The notes below the pieces were generated by a model. The model made no database searches. It worked only from the letters and a program-made list of their open reading frames with translations, and was not told the DNA's origin. This document shows, piece by piece, positions 6,683-40,400 of a stretch of DNA of 64,000 nucleotides. Origin of the DNA: Pelecanus crispus (lineage: Eukaryota > Chordata > Aves > Pelecaniformes > Pelecanidae); the NCBI RefSeq assembly GCF_030463565.1, contig NC_134652.1:16531397-16595396 (forward strand), written 5' to 3'. Both the position numbers and the translations under genes were made by a program. How positions within the stretch are numbered: the stretch's first letter is position 1; each line of letters begins with the position of its first letter.

Positions 6683-6830
6683 CTCGGGCACGGCACCCAA
6701 AGGCACTCACTCGGGCACGGCACCCAAAGGCACTCACTCGGGCACGGCACCCAAAGGCACTCACTCGGGCACGGCACCCAAAGGCACTCACTCGGGCACG
6801 GCACCCAAAGGCACTCACTCGGGCACGGCG
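6683..6830. repeat. 27-bp minisatellite, about 5.5 copies
   Basis: Five essentially identical 27-bp units start at 6683, 6710, 6737, 6764 and 6791, followed by a partial sixth at 6818. Each unit begins CTCGGGCACGG and continues with CACCCAAAGG. Because 27 is a multiple of three, both strands stay open across it and give short repetitive open frames with a 9-residue period, which I regard as artefacts. It lies at the GC-rich edge of the presumed ARMH3 intron 1. Confidence 0.95.
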
Positions 6831-8166: not shown

Positions 8167-8202
8167 ATGCTCTCGGTGACCAGGGCGGGCGCCCCAAGAT
8201 GA
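8167..8202 (+). promoter_or_regulatory. Short upstream ORF whose stop overlaps the HPS6 start (ATGA)
   Basis: An ATG at 8167 opens an 11-codon frame whose TGA stop at 8200-8202 overlaps the HPS6 ATG at 8199-8201. A longer upstream frame starts at the ATG at 7901 and stops at 8177-8179, 19 bases before the HPS6 start. If the messenger begins upstream of these ATGs, HPS6 would be reached by leaky scanning or re-initiation. The true 5' end of the transcript is not known. A possible donor, GGCAG|GTAGGC at 7876, leaves open a 5'-UTR intron. Confidence 0.45.
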
Positions 8203-10658
8203 AGCGAGCCGGGACGCTGCGGCTGCTCTCCGACTTCAGCGACTTCAGCCGAGGCCACTGGCTGCAGGAGCTGCTGTGCCGGGGAGAAGAGCCCAGCCAC
8301 GTCCAGTCCAGCCCCGACGGGCAGCACCTTTTGGTCCTGCAGAAGAGCCGGCCGCCCCCCCTGCCCCGGGTGGTGGCCTTCCAGCGCCACAGCATCGGTG
8401 GAGCCGAGCTGGAGAGGAACTGGCAGCCGCCCCAGCCAGCCCTTGTGGGACTGCTCTTCCTGCAGAGCCCTGTGACATTGGGCTCCTGGGTGCTGGCCAT
8501 TGTGTGGGAACACGGCCGGACCGAGGTCTGGCACTTCGTGGTGGCCGTGGGCTGGCAGCTGCTGCAGACGCTGGAGCTCTGCCAGGGTGCCCGGGCACGA
8601 ATCGTCTCTGTGTGCAGCCAGGGAGCCGGCCTGGTGTGGTGTGAGGAGAGGCCTCCCCTGGACGCCCACTCGGACATGAGCAAGTGTGCCTTCAGGTTCT
8701 GCGTCTGCACCCGGGCTCTGGAGGTGGGGGAGCAAGGCGTGCGGCTGGGCACTGTAAGTATAGTCCTGCACAACAGCCCTGAGTACGAGGTCCTGGCCTC
8801 CCCCCAGCACGTCTTCCTGGTGCCTGCCACTGCCAGCTTTGCCACCACTTCCAAATTCCTCCTCGTCTGGCATCCCGAGAAGGCAAAGCTCACCATTACA
8901 GCCCCTTCTGCAGGCTTTGTTCACAGCAAGGTGCTGCACTCCAGCAGCGAGTCAGACTTCAGGAAGCTCCTGCTTGGCTCTGTGGGTATTCTCTCAGGTT
9001 TGGCACCTCTGGACATTCACACCTCCACTGTGTCCAACAGTGGGGGTCTGCTGCTGGTAAGCACGAAGGGTGCTGTGAACATGGTGGAGCCAGATGGGAC
9101 ACAGAGGCATATCTTTGACCTGGAGGGGGGCCCCCTGGCCCAAGGAAGTCCTGTCCAGCTGAAGACCTTTGGCAGCATCCTGGCCTGTGTGCTGGCTGGG
9201 GTCCTGTACCTCGTCGACCAGAACAGTGGAAGGCTCATAGAAAAGAAAATCCTGAACATGAAACAGGTGCATTTCCTGGATCCCCTGGGAGAGGAGGACA
9301 GCATCCAGCTCCTCACTCAAACTGGCATCTACAGCTTTAGCTTCTCCAAACCTGAGGACAGCATCAGGCCTGAGCCGTGCCTGGTGGAGATGGTGTTTGA
9401 GGAGGCCTGCAGATACTATCAGAGGAGGAGCCTCAGCAGCTCCAAGCTGACGGTGGAGAAATTGAAGAAAGGTGGTGTGTTCCAGGCTCCTGTGGCCCTC
9501 GCTGCCATCCTGCAGCACAGCCTCCGCCAGAAGCAGAAGCCAGCCCGAGGCCTCCAAGACACTTACGCCAAGCTGTTGAGCACAATGAGCCTGGAGCTGC
9601 AGAGCTACATGAGCCTGGAGCTCCTCAAGACCTGCGTGGTGTGTGCCCCAGAGAGTGAGGTGGAAAGCTACTGCGAGGAACTGGTGGAGCAGGAGGTCAG
9701 CCGCGTTCTGCACTCTGACATGGACAAGGACAACTTGGCCTACCTGAACTCTGTCTTTGCCTCCTTCCCCAAGGCTGCCTGGAAGGCCACGAGGAGCTGC
9801 CTGCAGCTGCAGCAGAATGGGGACGGCCTCTTGGTAGCCAGGGCCACCCCGGAGGTGTGGAAGAAGGTCCTGGGAGGGCCGCAGCAGGAGGAGGTTGGTC
9901 AGAATGGGGTGGTCCCACTCTTCGAGCTCATCTGTGCCTCATTCCTGAGGTTCAAACCCAAGTGGCTGCCCAGTTTTGTGGAGCTGACCCAGCAGTACGT
10001 TAGCATCTCTTGGGCATACAGCAGCAAGGAGGGCCCAGAGGGCCGGGTGCCACTGTACAAGAGAGCACTGGGAGTACTGGCCAGGAAGAATAAGCGCAGC
10101 GAGGCAGATGAGGAGATGGAGCTCGAACTGCTGCTCTGCAGCAAGAGGCCTAAGGCTGTGCTGCAAGCTCTGCACCTTCTCATCCGCCTGAAGCGGTGGC
10201 AGCGGGTGGTGGAGGTGGCAGAGAAGTTCTCCAAGCTCAGCCTCTTGCTTAACAAGGAGATATTCACCACACTGCTGGCGGAGTTTGCCCAGCACCGGGA
10301 GCTGGACCCTTATCTGGATACACTGTGGCCGCTGTGCCCCGCTGAGCTTACCGCCTCGGACATCCTCGCCGTGGTTCTGCAGCATCTCCCTTGTTCCCAG
10401 GAGGACCCAGTGCCCTTCTCCAGCGAGGGAAACCAGCTGACTGTAGGATTGCTCAAGCCGTTGCTGCAAAGGGTTGTACAGCGTCCCTGCATCCAGGACG
10501 AGATGTACTCGGATGCCTTGCAGAGCCCCATCTTCCCCCCTCCTACCCCACCCCGAGAACACAAGATCCCCTCAAAAGCAGCAGCCGACGATGCCTCTCA
10601 GCCACCCATCGCAAGGACTTCCTCCCCCTCGGCGCTGGTACAGGGTGACACTGCATGA
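8199..10658 (+). CDS. HPS6: HPS6, BLOC-2 complex subunit 3 (single-exon gene)
   Basis: The gene encodes HPS6, a subunit of BLOC-2 (with HPS3 and HPS5), which directs traffic to melanosomes, platelet dense granules and other lysosome-related organelles. The frame of 819 codons is uninterrupted, as expected for a gene that is intronless in mammals. The human protein is about 775 residues. The start is set at 8199 because MKRAGTLRLLSD matches the human start MKRSGTLRLLSD, although the frame stays open upstream. Conserved landmarks include VWCEE near residue 149, VFEEACRYYQRRSL near 398, VWKKVLGG near 552, RPKAVLQA near 650, LLAEFAQHR near 692 and PPPTPPRE near 780. The N-terminal half is the presumed beta-propeller and the C-terminal half is mostly helical. 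About 30 residues follow the PPPTPPR motif, where the human protein almost ends. The gene is tail to tail with the prominin gene. Confidence 0.95.
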   Translation: MKRAGTLRLLSDFSDFSRGHWLQELLCRGEEPSHVQSSPDGQHLLVLQKSRPPPLPRVVAFQRHSIGGAELERNWQPPQPALVGLLFLQSPVTLGSWVLAIVWEHGRTEVWHFVVAVGWQLLQTLELCQGARARIVSVCSQGAGLVWCEERPPLDAHSDMSKCAFRFCVCTRALEVGEQGVRLGTVSIVLHNSPEYEVLASPQHVFLVPATASFATTSKFLLVWHPEKAKLTITAPSAGFVHSKVLHSSSESDFRKLLLGSVGILSGLAPLDIHTSTVSNSGGLLLVSTKGAVNMVEPDGTQRHIFDLEGGPLAQGSPVQLKTFGSILACVLAGVLYLVDQNSGRLIEKKILNMKQVHFLDPLGEEDSIQLLTQTGIYSFSFSKPEDSIRPEPCLVEMVFEEACRYYQRRSLSSSKLTVEKLKKGGVFQAPVALAAILQHSLRQKQKPARGLQDTYAKLLSTMSLELQSYMSLELLKTCVVCAPESEVESYCEELVEQEVSRVLHSDMDKDNLAYLNSVFASFPKAAWKATRSCLQLQQNGDGLLVARATPEVWKKVLGGPQQEEVGQNGVVPLFELICASFLRFKPKWLPSFVELTQQYVSISWAYSSKEGPEGRVPLYKRALGVLARKNKRSEADEEMELELLLCSKRPKAVLQALHLLIRLKRWQRVVEVAEKFSKLSLLLNKEIFTTLLAEFAQHRELDPYLDTLWPLCPAELTASDILAVVLQHLPCSQEDPVPFSSEGNQLTVGLLKPLLQRVVQRPCIQDEMYSDALQSPIFPPPTPPREHKIPSKAAADDASQPPIARTSSPSALVQGDTA

Positions 10659-14339: not shown

Positions 14340-14718
14340 CACACAAACACACCATTTTATTGTTTGACAGCAAAAATAAAAAAATCACAACCTTGGAAAA
14401 AGTCAGGCTCCCTACAAAAATAGAGTCACATTTTTCGAGCAAGGGGCCTGGGTGAGTGGGCTCCCACTGGCTGGCAGAGCAAAGGCTGCGGTGGCATGGA
14501 CAGTGTGAGCTGCCCTGAGCCCATCGGGGGGGGGGTAAAGTCCTGCCTGGGGCAGTGCAAGGGGCAGCCCCACACACACACACACACACCAGGGCATCTG
14601 GGGAGGGGGGGTTTCAGCCGGGGCAGTCCCAACCTGCTCCCCGGCACCCAGGGAGAAGGCGCAGCAGACGGGTCAGCTGTGTCCATCTCCTCCATGCCCA
14701 TGCTGTGGGCAGCGGGGG
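14340..14718 (-). other. Prominin gene 3' untranslated region and poly(A) signal
   Basis: The minus-strand stop codon is at 14719-14721. A canonical AATAAA on the minus strand occupies 14361-14356, with further A-rich sequence just upstream, so the messenger should end near 14340. A CA/TG dinucleotide run of about ten units at 14571-14589 lies inside this untranslated region. Confidence 0.7.
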
Positions 14719-17700
14719 CTAATGCCTCGTGGATGGCCGGGGAATTTTGTAGAAGTTGAATGTGGGTGGCCTGCAAAACCAAGGTCACTTGTGTCACCCC
14801 CCAGCCACAGAGGGGAGCAAGGGACAGCCCAGGATGCACTGAGAAGGCCAAAAGTCATCACACCCCTGTGGCCCAGCCCCTCAGGAAGAAAAGTGTGGAG
14901 ACCCCCCCTGCCAATACTCTGGCTTGGGTGAGGCTGGGAGCAGCAGCACCCCCAAACTGAGAAGTGTGGGAAGATGATGGGGGGACCCCAGAATAGTCTA
15001 CATTGCACAGGTCCCGCCTTCCCAGTCCTCCTTTGGTACCAGCACCCTCCTTGGCCTGCACTTGCCCTGTTCCCCTCCTCACCCCCCTCCCTCTGTGCCC
15101 TGTCCCCCCTCATGCCACAGGAGCTGCCCCCCACCCCACCCAGGGGCCTGGCACTGCTACTTACATCTCCAAGGCTTCATTCCTGGAGGGGAGAAAAAGA
15201 GGGGACATTGTCAGTGGGGCAAGAAGATGCCTCCTGGGACAGCTCACCAGCCCGACATCTCCCAGTGGGACAGGGTCTCCCCCAGAGCACACAAGGAGGA
15301 TAGGGGGGCTGCAGGGTGCTGTGGTCCCCTCCATCCCAGCTGCCCCATCTGGACACAGAGCACAGGCTCCTACAGCACCCCCAAACGTTGCTGCCTCCAG
15401 AGCGTCACTGCTCCTTCCCGGGCAGGCAGAGCGGGGCCCCATGCTCGCCGGCTCAGTGGCACAGAGCTCCCCCGTGCCACGATTTCAGTTCCCCCAAGTT
15501 TCCCTGGCAGCTGAGCCCATGTCTCCAGCCAGCTCAGCTGCTGGCTGCAGGGGGAAGTGAAACGCGCCAGGGACCCCAGGCACGCTACAGGCAGGGCACA
15601 GCCCGGCTCAGCACCACATCCTGCACACACCATGTACAACCCCAGCACCCATCCTGGGAAAGCGAGGAGGAGTGGGGCAGGCAAGGGGAGGAAGGCTGGC
15701 TGGGGCCACACAGGGAACGGGGGTGCTGCAAACCCCAGCTCCCCAGGTGGCTGCAGCCCTGAGGCAGAGGGGTGGCAGGCGGGGTGCTGGGGCCAAGGCT
15801 ACGTGGGGCCAAGCCGTAGCCCTCAGCAGCTGGAAATCCAGCTGGAAAGTGCTCACTATCCTCGGTGGCTGTGCTGGAGGTGGGGCTGCTGGTCAGAGCG
15901 CCCCAGAGAGACGGGGAAAGGGTCCCAGAGGGCTGGGGGGCAGCCCCGGGGCACCGGTGGCCACGGGTGCGTGAGCGAGCACTGCACCCTCGTGGCAGTG
16001 ACGCCAACCCTGCAGCACGCTGCTTCTGCGCAGCATCCAGCTGTGCTCCTCGTTTGGGGCCCCAGCACAAAAAATGGTGCAAAGCCAGAGCAAGTCCAGT
16101 GGCAGACCCCCGAGCCAGGCTGGGGGCTGCAGCCCGTGCTGTGCAAGCCAGGCTCCTTCCTCCAAGGGTGGTTGCAGGCACCTTCAGCTGCCCAAAGGGG
16201 GGTTGCAGAGCAGACAGAGCCAGGCTCTTCTCCAAAACATCTCCATTCTTGGAGGCTGAAGGTCCCAAGCCAGCTCTCTGGTCCCTCCCCAGCCCACGTT
16301 ACTTTAGGATCAGCCCCACGGGCTGCTGCAGGGGACATGAAGGTGCAGTTTGCAGTGTGCATGGGAGACCCCAGACCCAGGGTGGTCGCAGGGGGCAGGC
16401 GGCTCCTCACCTGTAGACATCAGCAATGTCCATGCGGCGGTAAAACTTGGCAAGTCTGACGGCCAGGATGATGCTGGGCAGCAGGAAGAAGGTACACCAG
16501 CCCAGGCTGAACCAGAAGGCGTTCTGGGTGTAGGGGAGAGCCATCAGAGCCCAGACAGCAAGTGAGAGCACCTCTTCTGCTCCCAGGCACCCCCAAAGAC
16601 CACCCACCCCTTCTTGCAGCCTGGCCTTTGCTCTTAGCCACAGCAATCTGCCGGGGAGATGCTGGTCCCTGCTTGCTCGGAACAGGGATGGGTACCCCTC
16701 ATCCTGTGCATGAGGGGGACAAGGGGACCTCATTGCCACCCCACACACATGTGTCACCCCACACACTGCTGCCCCACTCACCAGAGAGTCCAGGATGTAG
16801 TTGCAGGTGATGACCCCCACATTATCCACAGTCTGAGCTATGGGTTTGCAACGTGCCACGTCTCCCGTCAGCTGGGGACACGGTGGGGGCAGGACATGTC
16901 AGTGTCCCCAAAACCCTGCAGCCTGTCCTCCCCTTCCCTCCACCCGACCAAGGAAGGTTCAACTCACCTTGCTCTTGGCCCAGGAGACGTAGGTCTCAAA
17001 GAAGTCCAACAGCTCCTCCAGGAAGGCCCATGTCTCCTGGTGGGGGCAAGCAGAGAGTGGAGATGCTGCACCCCCAGCCCACTCCATGTCCCATGTCCCC
17101 TCTGTGTCAGGATCAGGGCTGTCAGACCACCTCAACCCAGCAGCAATGGGGCTGCTCGCCCCGCCCCAGCCCTTTGCCTGGGGTGCTATAAGGGGAGGGG
17201 GCACCCAGGGGTGCAGGGGACCCCTGGGGAAGGAGAGAAGGCAGGAAGAGCAGCCAGACATTGCTTGGATCCCTCTGCAGAGGGAGGTCTTGGTGTGGGG
17301 GTCCGGGTCACATCCCCACCAGGTGGCCTGGCAGCAGGGTAAGGCGAGCTCACGTTCTTGATGATGTTTGCGGTCTCCCTCTCCAGGAACTCCTGGGTTT
17401 CACTGGCTTTATCCAGCGCAGCTTTTGCCTGTGCCTGGGGTGAAAGATGCTCTCAGCAGTGTGATGGGGCAAGTGGGGTCCCCACATCTCCCCCACCCTG
17501 CCCGGCAGCAATCCCTGGGGCGCAGCGTCTCTGAGCGGTGGTGTCCCTAGCAGTCACACGCTGGTAGTGCCCAAGTACCTTGGGTGGAGGGAGCCTGTGC
17601 TTGGCAGGGCCCCTGGCATGGGCCCCCTCCCTCTGCCCCATGAGCAGCCCCTACAGTGCATGCTTGGGGATTCCTGCAGCAGCCACCAGCCCCCTAGGCT

Positions 17701-20700
17701 GCAGGTTAGCTCCCACCATCTCCACCATGGGACCTCAAGGGCGCTTTGCAGGGTGCCCCAGACTGGGGTGCGCTCAGGAGGCCCCCTTGTGCCACTTACC
17801 TCAAGCTGGGCAGTCCCGCTCTGCGCCAAGTGGATGTTCTCCTTCAGGCTTTGCTGGGGATGGAGAGAGGAGGGGTCGGAGGCGTGGACCCCACGGCTCG
17901 GCCAAGACCTCACCAGCAGGTTCCAAGCTCTGGAGGAGCCCAAGCCAGCACCCTCAGGACCTTCCCCACCCTGGCATCGCTCACCAGCAGCCCAGAGAAG
18001 CTCATCTGCATCTCCTTGTCCAGCATCCTGAGCTTGCGAGCACCAGCCTCCAGGTCCTTTTGCACATCCGCACCCTGGAGGAGCTGCAGTCAGCAGTGCC
18101 CCCCGGCATGGGGTCCCCGCCCCACCACAGCCATCTGATGGGGGGCCGGGCTGGAGAAAAGAGCTGGGCGAGGGTGAAGGGCCTCGCCTCCCTTCAGCAC
18201 CCAGGAAGGTCTGTGGAGGAGCCCCTGCAGCCAGTGGCTTTGGGGACAGCGTGGCCATGGCCCCGGGGTGCCATGGTCTCTCACCGCTTTGTCTGCCAGG
18301 TGCTCCAGCTCTGCAGCCAGATCCAGGAGGCTTCCCTGGGTCATGTTCTGATCCAGCTGGAAAAGGCAGAGACAAAGCCATGAGACTGGGGCTAACAGGG
18401 GGGACGTATCCCATCCCTGCAGGGCAGAGTAGAGCCAGGGCCTCCCAGGTGGGGGAGTTGCCCCAAGGGGTGACATGGATGGCAGGGGACACCCTGGGAG
18501 CCTGCAGTGGGGACTCCCACAGCAGCAAAGGGGAGGGAGCAATGGACCCCCTCAACATGCATCCAGACCCCCCCATCCCAACACCAGGCTGCCCCCAGCC
18601 CACCTGCTCCAGGGTGAGGGTGAAGTTGGGGGGCTGCCCGGCCTGGCTGGCATTCAGCAGCAAGTCTCTCTGGCTCTGGCTGAGCAGCGAGATGGGGCTC
18701 AGGGTGATGTTCATCTTCTCGAAGGCCGTGGATATCTCTCCTGTGTACTGCCGAGGCAAGGGGAGCCACGATGGGGCACAGTGCCGGCCCCTCGCTGTCC
18801 CCCCCAGCGCCAGCCCTGCACCCCCAGCTCTGCCCTCCTGGACCCTGGCACCCCTGCGCTCACCTGGCTGATGTTCAAGAGTTCATCCAGGGACACGCTC
18901 TGGTCCAGGTGCAGCGTTTGCCACAGGGCAGCATCTCGCTGGCACTGCCTGCAGGAGGGGGGCACGGGGCTGAAAAGGGGCAGGTGAGGGCCACCCCCTC
19001 CCAGGACCGTGTCCTCACCCACGCAGGCAAGTCACACCTCTCTCCTTCCCTGGCATCAGTGTCTGCCTGCAGCCAGGGCAAGTAGGGCAAGCTGCCCCCA
19101 TCCTGGGGAGCATCCAAGGGAGCCAAGCAGCCATACCTTTCCCCAAAGATGTGGTGCTGGAACTGGGACCCACCTGTATATCTCTGAGAAGTTTGCTGTG
19201 CCACCCTCCTGACCCAGCAGCTCCGACAGGTTAAAGCCAGGGATCAGGCCAGGCGTGTCCAGGAGCTGAGAGCAAGGGAAGAGATGGAGAAATTAGATAT
19301 GGTGCAGGGCAGGACACCTGGGAAGAGCATTCCAAACTGGCCAGTGCTGCCTCTTCTCCACCAGCAGCCCTTGGAAAGGCAGCAGTGGCTCCGGGCAGGG
19401 GTGTCTCCCCATGGGGAGCTCACCTGGAAGAGCTGCTGGCTGCGCCAGGACTCACAGACGAGCATGTAGATGTTCCCCCCAAGCACGAAGGTGATCAGCA
19501 CTAGCAGCATCAGCAGCCAGGAGAAGATGAAGCTGAAGCCAACACCTCTGCCAGAACAGAGGTGCCATCAGCACCCAGGGCCCTGTGCCCTGGCATCGAT
19601 GCTAGCATTGCTTCCAGCTCGGAAAGCCTGAAGCCTACACACCCCTTGCCCCCTGGGCAGTGCCAGGAAGCACCACCATCCCCACAAGCACATCTCTGCC
19701 CTGCCTTCAGTCCGTGGAGCCCGGCCAGGCTGTACTGTGGGGCTCAGACCCCGGCATGGCTTCCCCCAGCTTTGCAAGCCACCACCCGCCCGCAGAGCCA
19801 CAGGACCACGCACACGCTGCCAGGCCCCCACTGGCAAGGGGTGAACGGGCTCCGCTCGAACACTTTCCACCAGCACCATGTTTTACCCTTGCGTTTACCA
19901 CCTGCATGGCGAGTTGCCGTGGAGCAGGCCATTAAGCCACAGTATTTTCATGATTTAGGAGCTTGAGCATCCCCAGGCCACCCTGCCCACCCATCCCACG
20001 GCTCCCACACGCGTCCTTGGCAGCCGAGGGAGCCTCACGCCATGAAGAAGTTCCCGCCGGCGTTGGAGAGGCTGCTGCGCTGCGTGGGCAGCACGCTTTC
20101 CTTCAGCCCCAGGGGCCCCAGCAGCAGCCCGACAGCGTTGCAGAGGATGACCAGCAGCACCATGCAGCACAGGACAGTACACACGCTCCACCTGGGGCGA
20201 GAGGAAGGGCAGGAGTCAGACAGCAGGACCTGGCACCCTGAGCAGTGCCCAGCATCCCACCAGCTGCCTTCGTGGGAAAGAAAAAGCCCTTAGGCACCCT
20301 GGCAGGGAAGGGGCACGGGTCGCTGCAAGGCACAGCTCTGGCTACCCTGCACCCACAGCCCCACCACCAAGAAAGCCCCCACCTCCAGCAACTGGAGGAT
20401 CGAGAGCCTGAGCCTCTCCAGACAAGGGAGTCAGGCGATGCAGCAGCCCCTCGCCTACCTGAGCCTATCCGAGACGATGATCGGCTCCCTGTGCTCCTCC
20501 AGCACCGATTCAGCATTGCCCACGAAGGCCCTGACTCTCTCCTCCACATCCAGGAGCGGCAACTTCTCCTGCAAGCTCCTGATCTTCTGGCTGATGAGGC
20601 CCAGCTGGTTCTGCGTCTCTGCAGGGGACGGGGACAGGTTGGCACTTCAAGCTGCTGCCCGGGTCCTGCTTGTCCAGGGCAGGCGAGCCTGGGGCAGGGG

Positions 20701-23700
20701 GGACCCAGAGAGGATGGGAAGGGGGCAGCTGTGGCCAAGGATGGAATGCAAGAGCATGATGGCACTTGGGGACAGCCAGGGCTGCAGGCAGCAGGGTGGC
20801 AGCAGGAGAGGTCTCCAGGCAGGGATGGGGTGAGAAGGGAGGAAGGAGCCCTGGAAGAGGGAGAATTCAGCACAAGGGGCACAAAGCCCTGCTTACTTGT
20901 CACCACGTCCTGGGACTGCTCTTGCACCTTGGCAGGGATCATGTCCAGCGTGGTGTTAACCTGCATCCGGGGGGGGCACAGCATGCAGCTCATGTCCCTG
21001 CCTGCAGCCCAGGGCTGAGCAGCACATTCCCTCCGTCCCCAGATCCCAGTGGCACAGAACAGCCAGGCTCCTCACAGCACCGTCCACCGGACCAGCGCCC
21101 AGGGGTGGTGGGGACAGCAGGCAGGCTCTGGCCAAGGCAGATCTCTGGCCAGCCCTTCCCTCCATGTGACAGCAATTAATTCCCAGCGGGGCTCTTCCCA
21201 AGCCACCCCCTCGCAGCACAGCCCCAGCAGCACCAGGAGCACCCAGCCCTGTGCCTGGGGGCGGGGGGGGGGGTGGGCCCTTACCTTCTCTAAATCAGCA
21301 GTTATGTTGGAGCTAGACACATCACCCAGTGCCTCCAGCTGCTGCTCCACACCGGGGATCTGCGGGGAAGAGCCTGGGGTGAGGGGGCTGCGGGGGACCC
21401 CTTGCCCTGCACCCTGCCCCTCCTCACCATGCTGAAGTTGGCGCTGAAGGCGAGGCCGTCCAGGGACACGCTGCCGCAGGGGTGGCCGCAGCGCTGCAGG
21501 GTCTGGTTGAGGCCATCCTGCAGGATGGCCAGCTGCCGGCTGTAGTTGCTCTGCAGCTCCTCGAGGCGCGAGCGAGTGCTGGCAATGCTGCCGAAGGCGG
21601 CCGCCAGCATCTCCATCCCTGGGGAGACAGTGGGGGCTCGAGGCCTCATCCTGCCAGCGTGGCAGGGGCTTGTCCTCACTCAGCTGAGCCTTGGGGACCC
21701 ATCCAAAACTGCAATGTGGACGCACCCCCCTCAAAGTCTCAGCATTTGCCCCAAGCTGGGGCTGGAGTGGCCAGATGGAACCCCCCCAGGGGGCCTTACC
21801 CAAACCTTCTGGAGCCCCCCACGCATGCACCTGCCCCAGCATGCCCCTAAATCCCCTCCGAGGCCCTGTCGGCCCCCCAGGGATGGGGCCGCTACCTTGC
21901 AAGAGGCTCTGGAGGGATCCCAGAGCCCCATCCATGCTGCTCCTGATGCCCGAGACAATTGTGCTTCCCAGGTTGGGCCCGATGTCTGTGGAGATGGGAG
22001 AGATGGTGTCAATGATGGGACCCTCGGCAGTGGGACCAGGCTGCCCTGAGCAGCCCAGGGCTTGCAGGGAAGCTGCCGAAAATACTGACACCCCTCCCCA
22101 AGGACCCCATTCCACACCCACCCTCCAGGCAAGGTGGGCAGAGGGGACCCCCCACACCCTGCCAACACCTGCATCACCCTCCCAGAGAGGAGCCTGAACG
22201 GGGAAAAGCAGCAGCTGGAGCAGAGCGGGAGCCTGGAGGAGCCCCCAGACCCACTCCCTTTAGATACACCATGAGAACCAGCCCAGTGACCCCCAAGGTC
22301 AGCAACCACCTGCAGCACCCGCAGCCACTCCCCAAGCACCCCCAGGATGCCTCAGGCTGCACACCCTCACCCTGGAGCCTGTCGCTGGCGAGGCCCAGCG
22401 GGACGTTGCTGCTGTTGATGATAAAACTGATTTCCTGCAGGGACAGAGATGGGGTGTCAGTGTGGGTGAGGACACCTCCCTGCCCCCAGCCCCACTGTCA
22501 CCCTTCCCCAGGGGCGCTCTTTGCCCCCCCATCAGGCACCCCAGCCAGGGTGGGAGGACCAGGCATGCCTTGGGGATGGAGGCCAGGTAGATGTAGATGT
22601 TGTCCAGGGTGTTGTTGACGTTGGGGAAGGTGCCGCACACGGCCTGGGAGAAGCGGGTGTTGCTGATGAAGGCACAGACATCCCCAGCCCTGCAAGGGAA
22701 GGGTGGCAGGGTCAGCATGTGGGGACCTCGGTCCCGATGCTCTCCCCCAGGACCCTCTGAATCCACCCACGCTGACCCCAGGCTGCAGGGTCCAGGGCAG
22801 CCACTGAGCCGCCCTTCCAGAGCATCCCAGTGAGTGCCCTGCACGCAGCCAGGGGACCGGAGAGGAGGGACACAGGAAACTGAGGCACAAGGGAGCCCAG
22901 TGCCTGGTGCACCCGCATTTCCCTGCAGCAAAGCTGTCAGGAAGGGTCTGCACTGTGCCAACACGCAGCCCCCCGGGGCCAGCTCCCCACTGCCGACGCT
23001 TCCTTTCCTTTGTCCCGCCATGCTGGGATCTGCTCCTGCAAACAATGGCAGCTTCCTGCCACGGCCGCCAAGCGCCGGCATTTCCACCCACCCTTGGGTC
23101 CCATCCAGAGCCTCCCGGCCAGCGCACTCACAGGAGGAGAGCAGAGACCAGCAGGATGGAGGCCCAGAGCGCCCGGCGCCGGCAGCCCATCCGCCGGCCC
23201 TGCTTCTGGTACATGCGGCCCCCGCAGTTCCCGCAGCAGCGGCAGCAGCAGAAGCAGCATCCCACCAGGGGCACGAGGATGATGAAGAGGAGCCCGATGG
23301 CCGTGCAAACCAGGAAACCCACTTCATAGAGCAGCAGCTGGGAGAGGAAGAACAAGAGGCAGCATAGTGCTGGCATCCCTGAAGGCCCCCCAGCTCTGAG
23401 GGTCCTGTCCAGACCCCCCACGGGGCACATCTCCCCTTGCTGCTGCCCAGGACCTGGGGGTCAGCCTTGGAGTAGCAGCTGCCGGCATCCCCTGGCTCAC
23501 CACAGCCTGGGGCTGCTGGCTCCCTGCCCTGGCTGCCTGCTCACCTCGTGGACTTGCTTCCTGATGACCTCCTCGCTCTGGGACTGACTAAAATCTGCGA
23601 TCAGTTCTGGGAGACAAGGAGCAGAGAGGGCCATGAGTGGGTGCCCTTCCCTGGGGATGCTCTCCCGGAGGGCCCACACCCTGCTCACCCCAGAGAAGGG

Positions 23701-24969
23701 CTCCCAGCTCCAGCCATCACCTCCAGCGCTGTGGCTCAGAGCAGCTGCGAGCGCCAGGCACGTTTCTCCCTTCCAGCTGTCCCTCCCCGGCCATCGTGTC
23801 GCACAGCCCTTTTGCACCCGGGAAAAGCGCTGCCAGCCCCCTGGCTCTCAGGGGTCCACGGAGCGATGGGGTCCTCGCCCCAGTAGGCAGGAGGGGCAGG
23901 CTCAGGGGGAGGACGCTCCGACAGCCACCTTGGCTGCCCTCAGGCTGCCCTCCTGCAGCCCAGCCCCAGGCAGATGCCTGACCAGCTCGCCCTGCCCATG
24001 CCCCATGGCCTCATTACAAGCTGTGCCAGCACACGATGCCGTGTGACTGTACCCCGGTATCCGTGTGACACAAACGAGGCTACCGCATTGTTTGCCAGAC
24101 ACACATTTGCCTGCAAGTTGCTGGTGAGCAGGGGTTGAGCCCAGCAAAGGAGGAAGCACAAGTGCCGGCAGCCAGAGTGACAAACCCCTCCCCTAAGTGG
24201 GCACCACTTGCCCCCAGGGGCCATCGAGCAGCCGCAGGGTCCTGGCATTGCCCACGCCAACCTGCAGCCACTTCGGGGCAGAGCTGTGCCAGCGACACAT
24301 CCCCTCGGAGATTTGAAGGAGGGAGGGTGAGCGCTGGCAAGCAGGGTGGTGCGAGGGGGTGCCTGCAGCTCTGCCCTGTGGGACCTGGCACTGGGACAGG
24401 CTGCTCTTGGTGGCCCTGAGCCGGGTCCTGCCTAAGCACACCTTGTCACCTGCAAGCACAGACGGCTGCAAGCCAGGAAAGGACCCCGCAAACTCACAGG
24501 CAGCGCGGGATTTCCTCTGCACCTTTCATTGGGGCCTGGGATGACGATGCTCAAAGGGAGGATGGGGCAGGACTCTGCAAGGTGGCACCGCCACCAAAGC
24601 CTGTCCTAGTGCCCACCTGGGACTGCCCCACAGCTGTGCTGGGACACGGGCAGCACACAGCTGGAATCCTCAAGGACCCCACTCCATTCCCCCCTGCAGA
24701 CCCCTCCTAACCCAGTAGCCTCACATTTAAATGCTGGGTAGACAGTCACCAGAGCTTGAGGGCTCAGGCTCACCCAGGACCCCACAGCTCTGAGCAGCCC
24801 CCCCACCCCATCACCAGTTCCCCGCTGCCGTGCACCCACCTATGGGCAGGGCATTGGGCTGCACCAGCCGCAGGAAGCCGTGTACCATCGCTACCAGGCC
24901 CGGCGTGCTGCTCCCCGGTGCCTCGAGGCCGGGGCCGTACAGGGACTGCGAGATGTTCCCCAGCTCCAT
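14719..24969 (-). CDS. PROM3: Prominin family pentaspan glycoprotein, PROM3 type, 24 coding exons
   Basis: Coding exons (high to low): 24969-24840, 23606-23545, 23337-23132, 22689-22569, 22434-22371, 21985-21896, 21618-21428, 21359-21285, 20960-20897, 20618-20459, 20191-20039, 19547-19424, 19265-19174, 18948-18864, 18747-18604, 18356-18285, 18074-17985, 17853-17800, 17434-17354, 17036-16968, 16871-16782, 16523-16411, 15182-15165, 14770-14719. Phases agree at every junction and give 799 residues without a stop. Prominins are about 830-865 residues, sit in membrane protrusions and bind cholesterol. Segments: TM1 near 71-90 followed by a Cys-rich [14 protein letters not shown]2 near 118-136, large loop 1, TM3 near 390-416, TM4 near 440-466 ([10 protein letters not shown]), large loop 2 with N-glycosylation sites (LNIS, MNIT, LNAS), TM5 near 740-767 ([15 protein letters not shown]), then [11 protein letters not shown]. 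It shares features with both PROM1 ([13 protein letters not shown]) and PROM2 (NAFWF, WCTFFL, FMAGVG). The choice of PROM3 over PROM2 rests on gene neighbourhood. No signal peptide is visible before Met1. Confidence 0.85.
22566..22569 (-). other. Probable GC-type splice donor in the prominin gene
   Basis: The exon 22689-22569 ends AAG and the intron begins GCATGC on the minus strand. The next exon (22434-22371) has a good acceptor and needs phase 0, which this GC donor supplies. The only nearby in-phase GT is nine bases downstream (CTG|GTCCTC), a poor donor that would add three residues. Confidence 0.55.
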
Positions 24970-25244
24970 CACGGCGGCTCTGGCGGGTGCCTGGGCACAG
25001 AGAGAGGCTGTCGGTGTCGTTGGGGTGCAGGGCCACCCAGCCTGCCCTGCCTCTGGCCTCCGAGCAGGAAATGCAGGGAGAAAAAAATCAGGCACCTGCC
25101 AGCTCCTGCCCGGAAGGAAAGAGCTGGGGAGAGCACTGGGGAGGGATGGGGAGTCCCGGGAGCAGTAGGGTGGGGGGCCAGGCAGGAGATGCCCACGAGG
25201 GACCAAGAGGGCTGTTGGGGATGAAGCAGGGACAAAGCGCTTAC

Positions 25245-25323
25245 CCTGTCCTCTGGCACCTCCGCGCGCCCACGCCTGCCGCCGGGCCCAGCCGCACAGT
25301 GCCAGCGCTGGGGCTTTATGGTT
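25245..25323 (-). promoter_or_regulatory. Prominin gene probable 5' non-coding exon and TATA-like element
   Basis: A donor, GGACAGG|GTAAGC, ends a minus-strand exon at 25245, and the acceptor of the first coding exon is at 24991-24992. A TATA-like CATAAAG lies at 25320-25314, which would place the start site near 25290. No ATG occurs between that point and the donor. Translation is therefore assigned to the ATG at 24969 in the next exon. Another, more distant first exon is possible. Confidence 0.4.
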
Positions 25324-25329
25324 TGTTTA

Positions 25330-28945: not shown

Positions 28946-28949
28946 CAGC

Positions 28950-31415: not shown

Positions 31416-34400
31416 TTACTGCGACGCCTGCGACGTGGGGTTCTCTGACTTGCTCTCCTGGCTGGAGGGCGGTTTGCTGTTCCAGGGGCTGTTGGCCCCC
31501 AGCGCCGGCGAGTTGTTGAAGCTGTCCTCGTCGTCGATGCCGTTGGCGGCGTCAAACTGCGTGTTCTCCAGCCGGGTGATGAGCCGCTCGTCCTCGTCCC
31601 CAAACTCCCCCCCCATCAGCGTGGGCTCGCCTACCACCATCACATCCTGAAAGGGGAGACGGTCCCGAAACATAATCGAGGTGGGGGGAGCCCGGGCCGC
31701 CAGACCCCCCCACACACACACTGGGGCTGTGGCCCCTTTCTCAAGCCACAGGGCCACCTCCTCATCTCCATCGCAGGGCCCGAGGCTCGGGCGCCGCGTG
31801 GGGCAGACATGAGCTCACCCCCTTGCAGGGGAGCAAAGCAGCCCAGGGAAGGCAGCTGGAACACCCCCTCCTTCTCCCCGTCACCCAGAGAGAGCCAGGA
31901 GGGCTTGGACAGGCAGTCCCTGGGGGTCCCCCCTTAGCCACTCCCGGGGGCCGGGGCAGGGAGCCCTCCCCTCCACCCCGGGGGAGGAAGAGAGAATGGA
32001 AACGGGATGCTTACAGGTACCTGACTGGACAGGGCAAAGGTGCTGGCCGGGCTCTTCTTCTTGCTGTTGCTGTTGTTGGTGTTTCCCCCGCCGGAGCTCA
32101 TGGTGCTGCCCCCCGACATCTTCCTTTTCCGGCGCTTGCTAGGCTGCTGCCGCGCTGGCTCCGCTGGTGGAGGAAGGAGACGTGGTTGGTCCCGAGGAGA
32201 AGGAGACGGTGCCCCCCAGCCCCTTCTCTGCAAGGACCACATCCCCCCTGGGGCCGCATCGCCACCCTCCTCCCCTCTGCAGCTTCACTGTCCCCCCAGC
32301 ACAGGGGACAGGAGAGGGTGCAGGGAAGATTCCCGTCCCTGCTTTGCTTTCCACCAGCAGCCGGCAGCCCCTGGGCAGGGAGCACTGGCTGCCTGCAGCC
32401 TGCTCTGCCCCAGCGGAAGGCAGGCCAGCAGAGAAGGAAGCCGGCTGCCTGACGCGCTGTCCCCAGCCTCACAAGATGAGGCCAGAGATGGGCTCTGGGG
32501 CTGGAGAAGCCTGCACCGAGGGCAGGGCCCGAGCAGGCAGCCCCAGAGACCCGCGGGCAGCGCAGCAGGCAGCATGAGACTCACCAGGGGGAGCGACCAT
32601 CCGCTGCCACTTCTGGAAGAGGCAAGTCTTGAGGCAGTCCCGGGGACTGAGGCTGTAGGTCTTGTGCCGTGACATGAGCTCCTGCATTGGTTCTAGGATT
32701 ACACAGAGCTGCAGGGAGCAGACACGGGGTTAGATCACAATGCTCCAGGCCCCAGCAAAAGCCCCTCTGTCAGGCAGCCGGCTGTGCTGCACTGACCCAC
32801 GCCACACCGGGAGCCTGTGGGCTCCGGCAGACCCGCTGCCCCACGGCTCTCTGCAGCCTGTCTGCAAGATCACTCTTGCAGAGCCTGCCCCGCTGCCTCC
32901 CTGCACCCCAGGGCAGCCAGGCGTCGGGCAGCTGAGAGCACAAAATGTGGCCACCCTAGGCCCTCCCCGAAAGCAGAGCTGCATCCCCCCCTCTTCCCAC
33001 ATGCTTACTCGGAGGTAGTTGAGTGTGGAGTTTGAGAGCCCACAGCGGGTGATGTTCTTGGATAACTGGTCCAGCATCTGGGGGTCCTGTGCCTAGGAGC
33101 AAGAGGGACAGATGGCTCAGCTGCATCCGGGCTGGGGATGGCCCCCCCGTGCCCCAGCCTGCGATGGGGGGTCAGGGTTGAGGTCCCCCCAGCCTGCGCA
33201 GCAGGGAGAGGAGCTCAGCAGCCCTGTGCCACTCGTGCCCCGGGGGAGCTCCCGGAGCAGTACTCACATGCATGGCAAGGATGCTGCGGGGGATCAGCTC
33301 TCGATGCTGGCGGATGCTGAAATGCCATGTCTTTATCCTCATCATGTCGTCGAACATGAACTCCAGGTAGAGCCGCCCCTCCACACACACCTGGGCAGGG
33401 CGCAGAGTCAGGCACAGGCTGCCCCCACTTCCCCCAGCCCAGATCCCCTGGGAACCCACTGCTGCACGCTGGGACACCCTCCCGGTGGCTCGCCCTGCCT
33501 GCCGTGGGACTCGGCACAAGCCAAACCCGTGAGCCCATGATGGCCCCGTGGGACCGCAGCCACCGCGCGTTGGATCAAGGCACGAGGGGCAGGAGAAGCC
33601 GCGGGCGCAGCCAGTACCTGGGTGAACATGGGCTTGCCGTGCTGGGTGACCATGGTGCACTGGTCACAGTCCAGCGAGACGAAGTTGTTGTGGAAGGACT
33701 CCTTGGGGTGCTTGAGCACGTAGTAGAGCTCTGTGGCCCCCCCTTCAAAGATGCTGCGGAAGTAACGGGGAATCAAGGTCCGTCCGATCGCTGGAGCGGG
33801 AGAAGGAGGAAGATAATGTCAGTAAACCTGGCTCACCCAGACAGGCCTTGGGGCTGCACGGGGAGAGGGTTCCCCAGTTCCAGCTGGCTGGAGGCAGCTG
33901 AACTGCGACGCCCTCCCCGCACGGCACAACCGCTGCACCTCCTGCCAGAGAAGCAATGCCCTGGGGAAGGAGGGCTCAAGCTGCTACTCACTGTATCTCT
34001 TTGGTCCATCCTCCAAGCAGAAAGTGATTGTTAACATGGCATCGTCCTCAAAGAACTCCGTGGTGAAGGCATCCCACCACAGATTGTCACATTCCTGGGG
34101 ATGGCAGAGAGATGCCAGGTTATGGGGAGGGGAGACATACAGACAGACAGCCGCTGGCTGCCAGGCACAGCAGCCACGTGCTCAGCCTGCGGAGGGCTGT
34201 GCTCCTGGCTGTGCACTCGGAGACGGGGATGATGAACCCTGTCCCACTGCCGAGCGAGGGACAAGGCGCTCGGGGACCTGCACAGCAGGACAGGACCCTG
34301 CTGCCAAGGGGATCCTCCCAGAGCCAAGGCAGCTCATGAGGGCAGGCATCGCAGAAGACCCCACCCCCAAAACACACACCTGGGAGCATCTCCCCATCCC

Positions 34401-37400
34401 TGGCCACCCCTCGTTCCCCCAGCTCCCCACCTCTGTCCAGTTCTGCAGCCGCTTGTTGAGCTCAAATATCCTGTAGTCAGTCTGGTTCCCATATGGCGTG
34501 TGCCTCCTGCCCAGAGAGCAGAGCAAGCAGTCAGAGGGGGAGGCAGCCACGGGGTGGGGAGGGGTCCCGAGCCCACAGCAGGGGATGCACAGCCCCTCCA
34601 GGGCTGGGCAGAGTCTGAGCAACCCCCCCGCAAACCCCTGCGGCCAGCAGCGTGCCAGCTCTGCTGAGGCATCCCCGCTGCAGGCACGAGCTCCCCTCCC
34701 AGCGGGATCCCAGCCAGACCCCCACACTTACCCGATTCCAGGCTCCAGGTATGTCGGTGGGTACATGGGAGTAGGTCTGGGAGGGGGGCAAAGAAACACA
34801 GGCAGGTCAGTGCTGGTGAGGATCTCCCCCCCTGCCCACTGCAGCTCCCCGTTCCCTGCCTACAGCAGCAGGCGGTCAGGCTCGCTGGAGGCAAGACCCA
34901 GCGCATGGTGCGGGCTGCATGCACCCTGGCTGCCGACAGCCCCGTGGGGCAACCTGCACCCCTGAAACTGGGCTCTGCTCCTGCACCAGTGGCTGCTCCA
35001 CCACCCCTGGGACCTGGTCTGTGGCTGTCCGGAGATGTGCCCAGCTCCTCTGTAGCTGGGGCTGGTGCCAGGCAGGACGGAGGTTGGAGAAGGGGCTGTT
35101 TCGGCAGGAGCTGGGAGCACTCCCTGTCCTGGGTCATCCCAGGGGCTTGGCCTGGCAAGGGGCTTGTCCCCAGAGAGCTCAGGCACCTGGGGGCTCCCTT
35201 CATCCCAAATATCGCCCCTTCTCCACCCAGTCCCACCCGCGCCTGCTCCGATCCCCTCCCCGTGCAATAACTCAACTCCATGTGCCGCAGTCTCCGTATG
35301 CTGCTGGTGAGCATGACAGAGAGACCCCGGGGTGCAGACTGCAGAGCACCCCCAACCTTGCAGACCCCCCCGTCCCTGGGCCCCAGCTCACCCCACATCT
35401 CGATCCAGCATGGTGCCCGGGTGGAAGGGGGGGAAGGCGTTGCCGTTTGGGGGCTCCTTTGGCGAGTACAGCTTGAACGACTTAGAGGAGCAGCCTGGAG
35501 GGAGAGAGGGGACGTGGGTCAGCCGGGGGCACCCCGCGAGGAGAGACACCCTGCTGTGAGGAGGAGGAGGAGGAAGGATGCAGGACAAGCCAAGCCCCCG
35601 TCAGCACAGCCCTGTCCCTCTTCTGTTCTCCCTTGAAGCCAGCCCAGCCCCTTCACCCCACACACAGCACCAGGCCTTCCCCACGCAGGATGGAACCCAT
35701 AGGGTCAGGGCTGAGCTCCCAGGATCAGCAGCTGGAGGGGGCTGGCCCCATCCCAGGGATTTCCCACTGGTGCCCAGAGTTTGTCAGTTCGTAGCTGGCC
35801 GGGCTCCGGGGACGGTGCCCGAGGGGCACAGTGCAGCTGGTGAGCGGGGGGGCAGGGCTGGCTGGGCCCTATCCTCCCCCTAGCCTTCCTCCCGCCCCGC
35901 TCCTAATCCCACCGACCCGACCCAGGAATCACAAGGGATCTTTTTGCTGACCTTTCTATCGCCATGGTGACGGGTGAATAATCGCCCAGAGGGACGGATG
36001 GCGGGTCCCCAGGCAGCCACCATCTGCTGCTCGGGCAGGCCAGCAGCCACCCGGCTCCAGGTGGACGGAGAGATCCCACACACCAGCCCCAACCCGACCA
36101 CCCCAATGCCTCGCTGCCCCCCACAGCACCGGGGCAAAGGACGAGGAGCCCACAGAGGGCCACGGGGGGCGACGGGGTGTGCAACGGGGCGTGCAACGTG
36201 TGCAAGCCAGCACCCATCCCTGAAAGCAACCTGGGACCACCCCCAGCCTGCCAGTGGGGGACAGGGATGCCCGCTGGATCCAGCCACGCCGGCACGGCCA
36301 TCCACGCTCCCAAGGGGCAGCCGGGGGCTCCCACGCTCGCTGGCCCCCTCCTGCCAGCGGGGCAGGTTCCCAGAAGCGGTGGCTGCCAGCCCCCCTCCTC
36401 GATCCCCGCGGGAGCCCCGGCACACCCTGCGGCTGGCAGGACCCGGCACGCTGCGCCCGGGTGCTGCCGAGGCACGCGGCTCCCCGCCGGCGGGCAGCCG
36501 GGCTGACCTGGATGGGGCGCAGCGGCGGGCGGGCTGCCAGGCAGCTCCGGCTCCACCGGCTCAGCCGGCCCCGCCGCGCACGGGCACGTCTCCCCCCGCC
36601 GTGCCGCAGGCGGGGGCCCTGAAGCCGGCCACGCCGGGCTGCCGGCCGCAGCCGGGGCCGAGGTGGGATCCCCGTCAGCCGCCCACTCGCACGCAGCCCT
36701 GGGCCGGGCACTTCCCAACGCCCATGAGTTGCCAGGATTGCCGCCTGGTGCTGCAGAGAGCGAGCCCAGCCATGGAGGAAAGCGTCCGGGAGGCTCCGGG
36801 CACGCTGCTGCCCGTCTGGGCACTGCCGCACAGCCAGGCTGCAGGGAAGGGCACAGGGACAGGAGCAGCCACTCAGCTGTGATGGATCAGGAGGGGAGCA
36901 AAAAGCATTAGGGTTAAGGAAAGTGGTGCCACCGGCACTGGGACCCAAGATGTCCAGCTCGTTGCGACCTGTTAGCCGACACAGGAGCCTGAACGACCAG
37001 GGCATCACCATCACCCCTGCTTTGCCGCTTGGGACCCCAAGCCCGCAGTTGCAGGGATTGCACATGCAGCTGAGCAAGCGAGGGCTGGTCAAAACCAGAG
37101 GGATTCACCTCCCGGCATTAAATCCAACTTGCAACAGGAGAAATCTGCATTTCAGTCCTTAATTCTTGTTTTCATGGGGCCCTGATGCCTTTTCACCGTG
37201 TTTCCCCGTGGCAGCCAAACCCAGCCTCTCCCCAGCACCCACCAGGACGCACCAGTCCCACGGGGCTGGAGCCAGCCCGGCCGCTCTGCCGGGGGCTCGC
37301 CGCTCCCGCTCCTGCCCGCCTGCAGCAAGGATAAGTGGGGCACGGCACAATTTCTCATACAGCTGCTAACATCGTCTCCTTGCTCTTACCTAACGTTTTC

Positions 37401-40400
37401 ATAGATAAAATTTTTTTAATAGAGAGCTCGGTGCTGGTGCAAGGGAATTTTTGCTTTCTGCTTTAATCCCTCTCAACTTGTGCCTAATGGAAATTATAAT
37501 TCAACCGGAATTGCACTAGAAACACAGCGTTTCCATTTCCTCCACGCTGCTGTTCAACGACACGACGTCAAAGTGTGCTTGATGCATAGGAAACTTCCCA
37601 AAAGCACTTCTGTTGAAAACAAACCGATTCATTAGGCAGACACAGCAGAGGCTGGAGACACGGAGCTAAACTGCTTGTTTCTGGTCACCATGTCCTCAGG
37701 GGAGCGGGGGGGAAATCGGACCCAGCAGGTCTCATCCTCCAACGCTTTTTATTCACCGATGAGATGGGAGGAAAAAGCCCCCAAGGTTTCTTGCTGTCCT
37801 TGGCCCCCATCTTCCTTCTTGGGGTGCAGGAAGGTCTCCTGGGGCGGCGAGACCAGGGGGACACATCACTCTCCACCCATTCTGCTTCTCGTGCTCTTCC
37901 CTAGCCCCCTGCTCCTGGAGGTGGGACAGCAGAGGAGCCGGCCTGCCGCTCCGACCCAAGCATCCATTTCTATCCTGGGCCTTCCCAGGCAGGTTAATAC
38001 GGACACGACCTGCTTTTGAGGGTTCACTGAGTGACCTATCTCAGGATCTAGAGGAGTGGAGAGGAGCCTGTTATGCGACCTCAGCAACACCAGCATCCTG
38101 ACCAAGTATTATTTTTAATGTGGCATAAAATATGTTACTGGATTCAGTGGTTTTAAGTAACGCTAACAATAGCCTTAGGATTTGATACAGGCTGTCCGAA
38201 TTCTACATTCACTGTGGACACACTACACGCATTACACAAAATAATGCAACTACTTTACAGCAGCATCAACACCAACTTTTACCCACACAAGGGTCATGCC
38301 GCCCGGTCCAGGAGATCCCTCCATCACCGCCTCTCCCCTTCGCGCTGCCCCAGCTCCCTGCAAGCCCCATCCCACTGGGCGCAGTGACCCAGACCTGCAG
38401 GATGCGGCCCTTCCCGAGCCAAGCCCAGCACCTGGCCCCAGCTGATGGCTCCCCATGCCCCTGCTCTGCCTCCTGCTTTGAGCACGGAGGATCCAGGCAG
38501 GATCCACGCGGGCTCGGTGCAAGCAGGGATGCCGCTTGGCAGCTGGGCATGCGATGCCCCTGCAGACCCTGAGCCGATGGGAGAGGCTTCCCATGGCCAT
38601 CCCCGGGCGCTCGCACAGCACCACAAAAACACGTGCACAGTCGGCGAGGGAAAAAATCAGGCTGACACTGCAGCTGGCGAGCTACCGGCCCGGGCAGGTC
38701 TGGGCAAACGGCGGGTGCCGGCGGCCAGGTGGGCGGCCCCACAGCTCCTCCTCGGCGGGGAGGCGTGGGAGAAGGGAACCCCGTGGAGGGATGCCCCGGC
38801 TCAGCATCCTCTGCCGAAGCCAGGTCCCCGGCCGTGGGCAGGACAGAGCTGGCCGGCGCCGCACGGAGCTGCCACGAGAGCTCAGGCAAGGAAGCAGCTC
38901 CAGGCAGGCGGGCACCCGGGAAAGGGAAGGTGGGTGCTCTGCCAGTGACTCACGTACAGCCCGGCACTGCCCAACCCTCCGCCTGCCTTCTCTGCTTTCC
39001 CTGCCTGCTAGCTGCCAGCCCCGCAGGGAAAGCTCTTCTGGTGCGCTGCCCAGTGGGTTTGCTGGAGCAGGAACAGTTAAAACCCTAACCAAGCCCCCAG
39101 AGCTGGGGAATGTCAGGTTTCCCAAGGAGCCAAGAACACAGCTGGCTCATGGAGCCAGCACAGCCAGGAGACAGCAGAGCACCGTGAGCTGAGACCAGCA
39201 CCGACCGGGGAGCTGCCTGCCAGGGCAGGGGACACACAGAGCCTTCCTTGGTGTCTGGGAGGGAGAAAAGCCCCTGCCTGCTCTCCTCTCTTGCCAGCAA
39301 AGAGCAAAGAACTGCTGAGGACAAAGGCAGAGCAGCGCCGGCGTCTCGCTCCCACACCTGCAGCCACCGGCAGAAATCAGCGCTCCCTGTCCCAGAGAGG
39401 AGCCATCCCCGGCCGGGCAGCCAGCGTGCTTTCTGTGCAAGCAGCAAAGCTCAGCCACAAGGCAGGGACTCCAGCGACTGAAAAAAAAAGATAAAAATAA
39501 ATGAAGAAACAGGGCTTGAAAGAGGCCGCAGGGTTACAGCTCAGCCAGGGAGCATCCTGCTCCTCCCAGCAGCCCAGCGGCGAAGAAGAAGAGGGGCTAG
39601 CCTTCACGTAAAGGCTGTCGCTGCTTCCCGGCATGCACTGTGCCTGCTGCTTCCTGCCTGTCTAACGAGGCTTTAAAGTGTAAATAGCGGCATTGTTTCG
39701 CAGGGCTGCCTCGCAGCGGTGTGGAAGCCGTGATAGCAGCAGGAAATGCATCTTCCCAGCCCAGCCCCGCTGGCAGGGCTGCCAGGAGGGTGCTATCCAG
39801 GAGGGTTCTATCTGGAGCCGGGTGCAGGGCAGCGTCTCCAATAATTCACGTGGCTTTGCCCGGTGATGGTGCCTGGTGTGGGGGAAGCTGGCAGGGCTGG
39901 GGGAGCAAACACAGAGAAGTATCAAGAGCAACTGGGACAGGCAGAAGCACACGAAGCAGTCCCCACAAACCTGCCTTCACCTTCTCTTTCTCCTCTTCTT
40001 TGGAGCAGAGAGGGTGGAGCGAGGCCAGTTGCAAGCCCTGATGCTATTAAACTGAGAGGAACCCAGGCAGCACACACCAAGGCATGGCCCGAGACATACT
40101 CAGCGACAATCTCAACTTGCAGCATCCCCATTTGCTTTGAAAATGCAGAACTGACCCAGGCAAAGCTCCCGGGAGGCCAGGCTGCCCAGGGAAGAGGAGA
40201 CGCCGCTCCTGGAGGAGACGCTGGGACGAATGCCACGGACCCAGCCGCATCCAGAGACTGAACCCGGCTGGCACGCCACCCGGCCCTGACCGGCACGGAG
40301 GCGAAACGCGAAGCACCGCCAGCCCTCCTGCACGCAGGGATTGCCCTCTCGCTTTTCTCAAGCCACCCATCTGAGCCGGCCACGGAGCTTATCTTGACCA

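Follow-up and report, generated by a model that had tools for sequence, protein, structure and literature searches.

A third prominin gene, very probably PROM3, between HPS6 and LDB1 in Pelecanus crispus

The DNA considered here, referred to as the window, is a stretch of 64,000 nucleotides from Pelecanus crispus (contig NC_134652.1, positions 16,531,397 to 16,595,396; the contig is called C10 below). On its minus strand lies a prominin gene of 24 coding exons which, judged from sequence comparison and position, is very probably the bird PROM3, the third vertebrate prominin; this confidence concerns the identity of the gene and not the way in which its product may enter the membrane. It is proposed that PROM3 and LDB1 have remained neighbours ever since the genome duplications of early vertebrates; the predicted product is a five-pass membrane glycoprotein of 799 residues. 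The complete coding model and its exact position describe a prominin that humans and mice have not been found to possess, in a tetrapod whose genome also retains PROM1 and PROM2.

The coding sequence opens with an ATG at 24,969 and closes with a TAG whose last base is 14,719; its 799 codons stay in phase, with the terminal stop as the only one in the hand-set exon model. The 23 introns within it measure 68-1,233 bases; 22 have GT-AG splice sites and one, following 22,569, is GC-AG (donor AAG/gcatgc). Automatic exon chaining, based on splice scores and codon usage, accepted GT donors only, with GC donors forbidden and extra exons favoured. Its best chain has 39 exons, adding spurious short ones and reading through the GC donor, but the core is correct: both ends agree for 18 of the 24 model exons (one of them in another frame), and one end agrees for the other six. 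Because the automatic chain barred GC donors and added short exons, the final boundaries were set by hand. The preliminary description of this DNA had proposed 24 coding exons joined into an uninterrupted 799-residue pentaspan prominin, and the same length, a single stop at the end and five hydrophobic regions were recovered. The poly-A signal also agrees with the gene end at 14,340 given there.

The G+C fraction at codon positions 1, 2 and 3 is 0.573, 0.399 and 0.829, and that of the introns is 0.650. As only 1.8% of the triplets in the GC-rich introns are stops, the open frame by itself is weaker evidence of coding (a chance of about 6e-7 for a frame staying open across 799 codons, before allowing for the choice of exon ends); the profile match decides. 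The Pfam family Prominin (PF05478) matches residues 25-768 of the protein (655.7 bits; E 1.2e-196), the alignment extending from position 39 to the end of the 799-position profile, and on this sequence evidence the gene is coding. A weak Apolipoprotein match (E 1.2e-4; 22.2 bits vs. the family cut-off of 90) was taken as helix-repeat resemblance. A search of solved structures in the PDB found no prominin chain; with E values of up to 1 allowed, the sole hit was to a chain of a viral spike (E 0.76), and this was taken as chance.

Hydropathy, from which alone the membrane segments were taken, gives five hydrophobic regions in the 2+2+1 pattern of prominins (approximately residues 64-102, 119-144, 385-418, 435-472, and 741-766), numbered here as transmembrane segments (TM) 1 to 5. 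The protein contains 16 N-glycosylation sequons. Trp 743, within the NAFWF motif of TM5, aligns with PROM1 and PROM2 and corresponds to Trp-795 of human PROM1; one article describes the TM5 tryptophan as near-invariant in prominins and reports that its mutation impairs PROM1 vesicle formation (PMC11405016). A 16-residue stretch of the first cytoplasmic loop holds eight cysteines, compared with six and four in the prominins of contigs C4 and C21 of the same genome and five and six in human PROM1 and PROM2, a number that varies within groups. Close to the C-terminus stands an 18-base microexon, which may or may not correspond to the alternatively spliced exon 24a of frog PROM3 (PMC3108902).

Evidence for a separate paralogue comes from the genome of the same bird. 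A Pfam Prominin search of its 1.31 Gb (310 contigs) gave at least 16 exon matches among 28 scored candidates, with a minimum of seven on C4 (70.19-70.22 Mb), five on C21 (5.505-5.511 Mb) and four in the window on C10; match counts are lower bounds, and only one of 14 control genomes gave a signal, below the cut-off. There are thus three prominin loci in one genome. The genes on C4 and C21 were rebuilt by aligning them, with splicing, against human PROM1 and PROM2 sequences that did not come from a database, which produced an 824-residue C21 model with one terminal stop and a 788-residue partial C4 model without a stop; direct alignment of the window protein to C21 recovers largely the same C21 core. 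Some parts were judged spurious and left out: the five leading exons (10,456-11,525 of the joined C4 stretch) and the final 4 bases of the C4 model, and two pieces at the start of the C21 model (29,346-29,363 and 29,438-29,447). Identities and the tree cover five rows from TM1 to the C-terminus, with no outgroup. The C4 protein is 54.4% identical to human PROM1 and the C21 protein 48.2% identical to human PROM2, and from these sequences C4 is the PROM1 and C21 the PROM2 of this genome. The window protein is about equally far from all four: 32.7% from C4, 30.1% from human PROM1, 30.4% from C21, and 32.6% from human PROM2, all given as identity.

In the five-row tree, the PROM1 pair and the PROM2 pair are both supported at 100/100, and the window protein branches next to the midpoint between them. 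Support for both pairs stays at 99-100 under the simpler LG+G4 model and when either half of the alignment is taken by itself. The approximately unbiased (AU) test rejected trees that join the window protein to any one of the other rows: human PROM1 (p 1.3e-12), C4 (2.5e-5), human PROM2 (9.6e-8) or C21 (2.4e-4). At 106 columns each pair agrees internally and the two pairs differ; there the window protein has the PROM1 residue 26 times, the PROM2 residue 28 times and another residue 52 times. The earlier expectation of a separate paralogue mixing PROM1-like and PROM2-like features is borne out by these columns, by the presence of PROM1 and PROM2 on C4 and C21, and by the four rejected placements; the protein did not group inside either family. 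Which of the two is its sister, five rows without an outgroup cannot say.

From the TM1 exon to the TM5 exon, 15 of 20 exons have the same length as in C21 and 14 of 20 as in C4; the others all differ by a multiple of three. The introns of the window gene correspond to those of the C4 and C21 genes, so it is no retrocopy. The TM1 exon of C4 PROM1 (L010 7229-7434) was fitted with a GC donor, AAG/GCAAGT, so a second prominin of this genome may have a GC-AG intron, at a different place.

The window gene sits between HPS6, on the plus strand, and LDB1, which lies upstream of it in the same orientation. LDB1 was found by spliced alignment; the LIM_bind profile search missed it and gave one exon only (one match among six candidates), at 69.947 Mb on the plus strand of C4, where the PROM1 exons follow on the same strand after about 0.24 Mb. 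This exon was taken as that of an LDB2-like gene beside PROM1, which would mirror LDB1 upstream of the window gene. Eight nucleoplasmin exon matches in all are spread over C10 (approximately 0.23 Mb from the window gene), C21 (1.06 and 2.50 Mb) and C8; by its position the C10 gene is a candidate NPM3. The two C21 loci, on the contig of PROM2, are separate (1055778-1056255 and 2496950-2497236), and for the corresponding chicken region the chicken section of PMC2446394 names only Npm2, placed with Prom2 on chromosome 22. Table 1 of the same article (Wotton et al. 2008, PMC2446394) assigns Ldb1 and "Prom3 (fish)" to the Lbx1/Tlx1 locus; Ldb2 and Prom1 share a second locus, and Prom2 belongs to a third. 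The window gene occupies the Ldb1 (Lbx1/Tlx1) paralogon location, as judged by the adjacent LDB1 and the C10 nucleoplasmin gene. Because the neighbourhood fits the published Ldb1/Ldb2 scheme, the window gene is, by position, the tetrapod counterpart of fish Prom3. The mirroring of LDB1-PROM3 by LDB2-like-PROM1 supports descent from early vertebrate genome duplications, and the LDB1 adjacency together with the published fish location (PMC2446394) supports loss in therian mammals.

Two other explanations bear on what the gene is. The short motifs that it has in common with PROM2 (NAFWF and WCTFFL, in TM5) and with PROM1 (the RRMD..DVY tail) could suggest a lineage-specific copy of PROM2, or of PROM1, that came to its place beside LDB1 through retroposition or translocation, an origin that the preliminary description had itself set against its own reading. 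However, its 23 introns within the coding sequence are present and match, the protein is no closer to PROM2 than to PROM1, the AU tests reject nesting, and PROM1 and PROM2 sit elsewhere in the same genome; a moved copy is highly improbable. It might also be argued that PROM3 survives in structure but has stopped yielding a surface protein, either through loss of its signal-peptide exon or through lack of expression. The candidate first exon has no ATG, no convincing signal-peptide exon was found at 24,994-32,500, and one intron has a GC donor. On the other side stand 799 codons without internal stop or frameshift, the strong codon-position composition, and the transcribed frog PROM3, for which PMC3108902 likewise reports no predicted signal peptide. 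Such a loss of function is therefore regarded as very unlikely, and the gene is presumably expressed.

The identification of the gene as PROM3 has to be weighed against several points. The first coding exon and the start codon of the model are uncertain, so "intact" applies to the reading frame, and one splice donor is GC. The model is built from genomic sequence. For human PROM1, PROM2 and LDB1 no database records were used, and since the C4 and C21 models were fitted to these human rows, identities within the pairs may be slightly raised. The tree consists of five rows without an outgroup, and two of the rows (C4 and human PROM2) were flagged as atypical in residue composition. Finally, the assignment to PROM3 follows from exclusion and position, in a comparison with PROM1 and PROM2 of human and of the same genome.

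The N-terminus raises the question of how a prominin without a signal peptide inserts in the membrane. No signal peptide is evident in the model, which begins with MELGNISQ. Among the first 35 residues, the 10-residue stretch of highest hydropathy averages 1.85 and corresponds, by eye, to the segment shortly before TM1 in PROM1 and PROM2; the leading hydrophobic stretches of C21 PROM2 and of human PROM1 and PROM2 reach 2.35-2.76. The minus strand between 24,994 and 32,500 was scanned, by hydropathy only, for ATG-led frames with a hydrophobic stretch and a phase-0 GT donor; none of the six frames found there combined a good donor behind the hydrophobic stretch with prominin-like sequence. One donor, at 27,602 (score 3.6), precedes the hydrophobic stretch of its frame. 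Across TM1, the cytoplasmic side has eight Lys/Arg and no acids in 35 residues and the outer side two Lys/Arg and three acids in 15. It is proposed that TM1 is an uncleaved reverse signal anchor that would place the short N-terminus outside. This idea was drawn from the lack of a detected signal peptide, and it fits the charge balance; it is put forward tentatively, as a possibility held with somewhat less than even confidence. Frog PROM3 is described as transcribed and without a predicted signal peptide (PMC3108902). With similar reserve, tetrapod PROM3 might be a distinct subtype whose route to the surface needs no cleaved signal, its TM1 anchor shared by frog and bird, unlike PROM1 and PROM2 with their cleaved signals. 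A condition shared by frog and bird would have lasted for more than 300 million years.

The rival to this proposal is that an unrecognised upstream exon encodes a conventional, cleaved signal peptide, which would leave the identity of PROM3 untouched and dispute the anchor step only. The reading frame is open for seven codons upstream of the ATG, up to the acceptor at 24,990, and the best leftover candidate of the scan is an ATG-led hydrophobic frame at 29,463-29,191 with a moderate phase-0 donor (score 4.0). By eye, however, this candidate lacks a prominin-like N-terminus; in C21 PROM2 the signal peptide shares its exon with the segment shortly before TM1, and the frog protein, again, has none predicted (PMC3108902). 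An upstream signal exon is a serious though rather doubtful alternative to the signal anchor.

The closest known system is prominin-3 of Xenopus laevis, from which three prominins were cloned (Han and Papermaster 2011, PMC3108902). As there, a third five-pass prominin stands beside PROM1 and PROM2, and exon organisation is conserved among the three genes of the genome. No signal peptide is predicted for the frog protein, and the hydropathy scan found no convincing one for the window model. Eight cysteines are reported in the cysteine-rich first loop of the frog protein and eight were counted in the window protein up to CGG, although the frog domain limits may differ. The frog gene is known from transcripts and has the alternative exon, whereas the window gene is known from genomic sequence and is likened to it by description. 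The prominin-3 list of that article includes a chicken fragment (AF406812, Table 3), inferred to be the same gene in a bird, and platypus XP_001511144; both are described as incomplete and in need of placement, whereas the window offers a full coding model and a genomic position. Fish Prom3 has the same Ldb1 neighbourhood but was marked as fish at that locus (PMC2446394), and the window gene is a tetrapod copy in the same place. PROM1 and PROM2 of the same genome belong to the same family and share most core exon lengths; unlike them, at 33% and 30% identity, the window protein forms a separate lineage by the AU tests, and the leading hydrophobic stretch of C21 PROM2 was not found in it.

The preliminary description had held that a full bird copy in this setting would show loss in therians. 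The gene and its place were confirmed, but the novelty was not: no sequence from seven therian species grouped with prominin-3 and the third homologue was considered apparently lost during mammalian evolution (PMC3108902), and the fish locus was already given (PMC2446394), so that the conclusion appears largely anticipated. No description of a full bird PROM3 gene or of its LDB1-adjacent position was found among the open-access papers listed, which is weak evidence of absence. As for function, PROM3 is reported as the most abundant prominin in frog kidney (PMC3108902), and silencing of zebrafish prominin-3 as affecting cilia (PMC11776279). By family membership, the window PROM3 may gather at membrane protrusions and cilia, associate with cholesterol, shape curved membrane, and influence vesicle release, like other prominins.

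Table 1. Features of the PROM3 locus and its neighbours (window coordinates).
Feature	Position	Strand	Basis or remark
Candidate non-coding first exon, without ATG	25245..25290	-	donor AGG/gtaagc, score 6.0; upstream edge a guess
PROM3 coding exon 1, N-terminal segment before TM1	24840..24990	-	ATG 24,969 in context GCCGCCGTGATGG
PROM3 coding exon 2	23545..23606	-	exon model
PROM3 coding exon 3: TM1, cysteine-rich first cytoplasmic loop, TM2 start	23132..23337	-	best Pfam exon match of the locus, E 2.7e-19
PROM3 coding exon 4, ends at GC donor	22569..22689	-	length 121, same in C21 and C4
PROM3 coding exon 5	22371..22434	-	exon model, paralogue comparison
PROM3 coding exon 6	21896..21985	-	exon model, paralogue comparison
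PROM3 coding exon 7, part of first large extracellular loop	21428..21618	-	exon model, paralogue comparison
PROM3 coding exon 8	21285..21359	-	exon model, paralogue comparison
PROM3 coding exon 9	20897..20960	-	exon model, paralogue comparison
PROM3 coding exon 10	20459..20618	-	exon model, paralogue comparison
PROM3 coding exon 11: TM3	20039..20191	-	Pfam search, exon model, paralogue comparison
PROM3 coding exon 12: TM4	19424..19547	-	Pfam search, exon model, paralogue comparison
PROM3 coding exon 13	19174..19265	-	exon model, paralogue comparison
PROM3 coding exon 14	18864..18948	-	exon model, paralogue comparison
PROM3 coding exon 15	18604..18747	-	exon model, paralogue comparison
PROM3 coding exon 16	18285..18356	-	exon model, paralogue comparison
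PROM3 coding exon 17	17985..18074	-	exon model, paralogue comparison
PROM3 coding exon 18	17800..17853	-	exon model, paralogue comparison
PROM3 coding exon 19	17354..17434	-	exon model, paralogue comparison
PROM3 coding exon 20	16968..17036	-	exon model, paralogue comparison
PROM3 coding exon 21	16782..16871	-	exon model, paralogue comparison
PROM3 coding exon 22: TM5 with conserved tryptophan (residue 743), tail	16411..16523	-	Pfam search, exon model, paralogue comparison
PROM3 coding exon 23: 18-base microexon, phase 2-2, in-frame skippable	15165..15182	-	C4: 24-base phase-2 exon, same place
PROM3 coding exon 24 and stop codon	14719..14770	-	exon model
Poly-A signal AATAAA	14356..14361	-	read from sequence
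LDB1, 11 coding exons, upstream neighbour, same orientation	31419..55259	-	spliced fit to human LDB1; LIM_bind and LID domains
HPS6, single open frame, neighbour on other side	8199..10655	+	HPS6 E 9.1e-157; HPS6_C E 2.4e-192

Tandem repeats were also observed at three places in the window. At 26323-26962, between the first exon of PROM3 and the 3' end of LDB1, lies a minisatellite made of 12.3 copies of a 52-base unit (95% matches), and a perfect 27-base repeat of 5.4 copies is located upstream of HPS6 (6683-6829). Diverged repeats of 41-42 and 83 bases (68-72% matches) occupy 54753-55183, just downstream of the first LDB1 coding exon.

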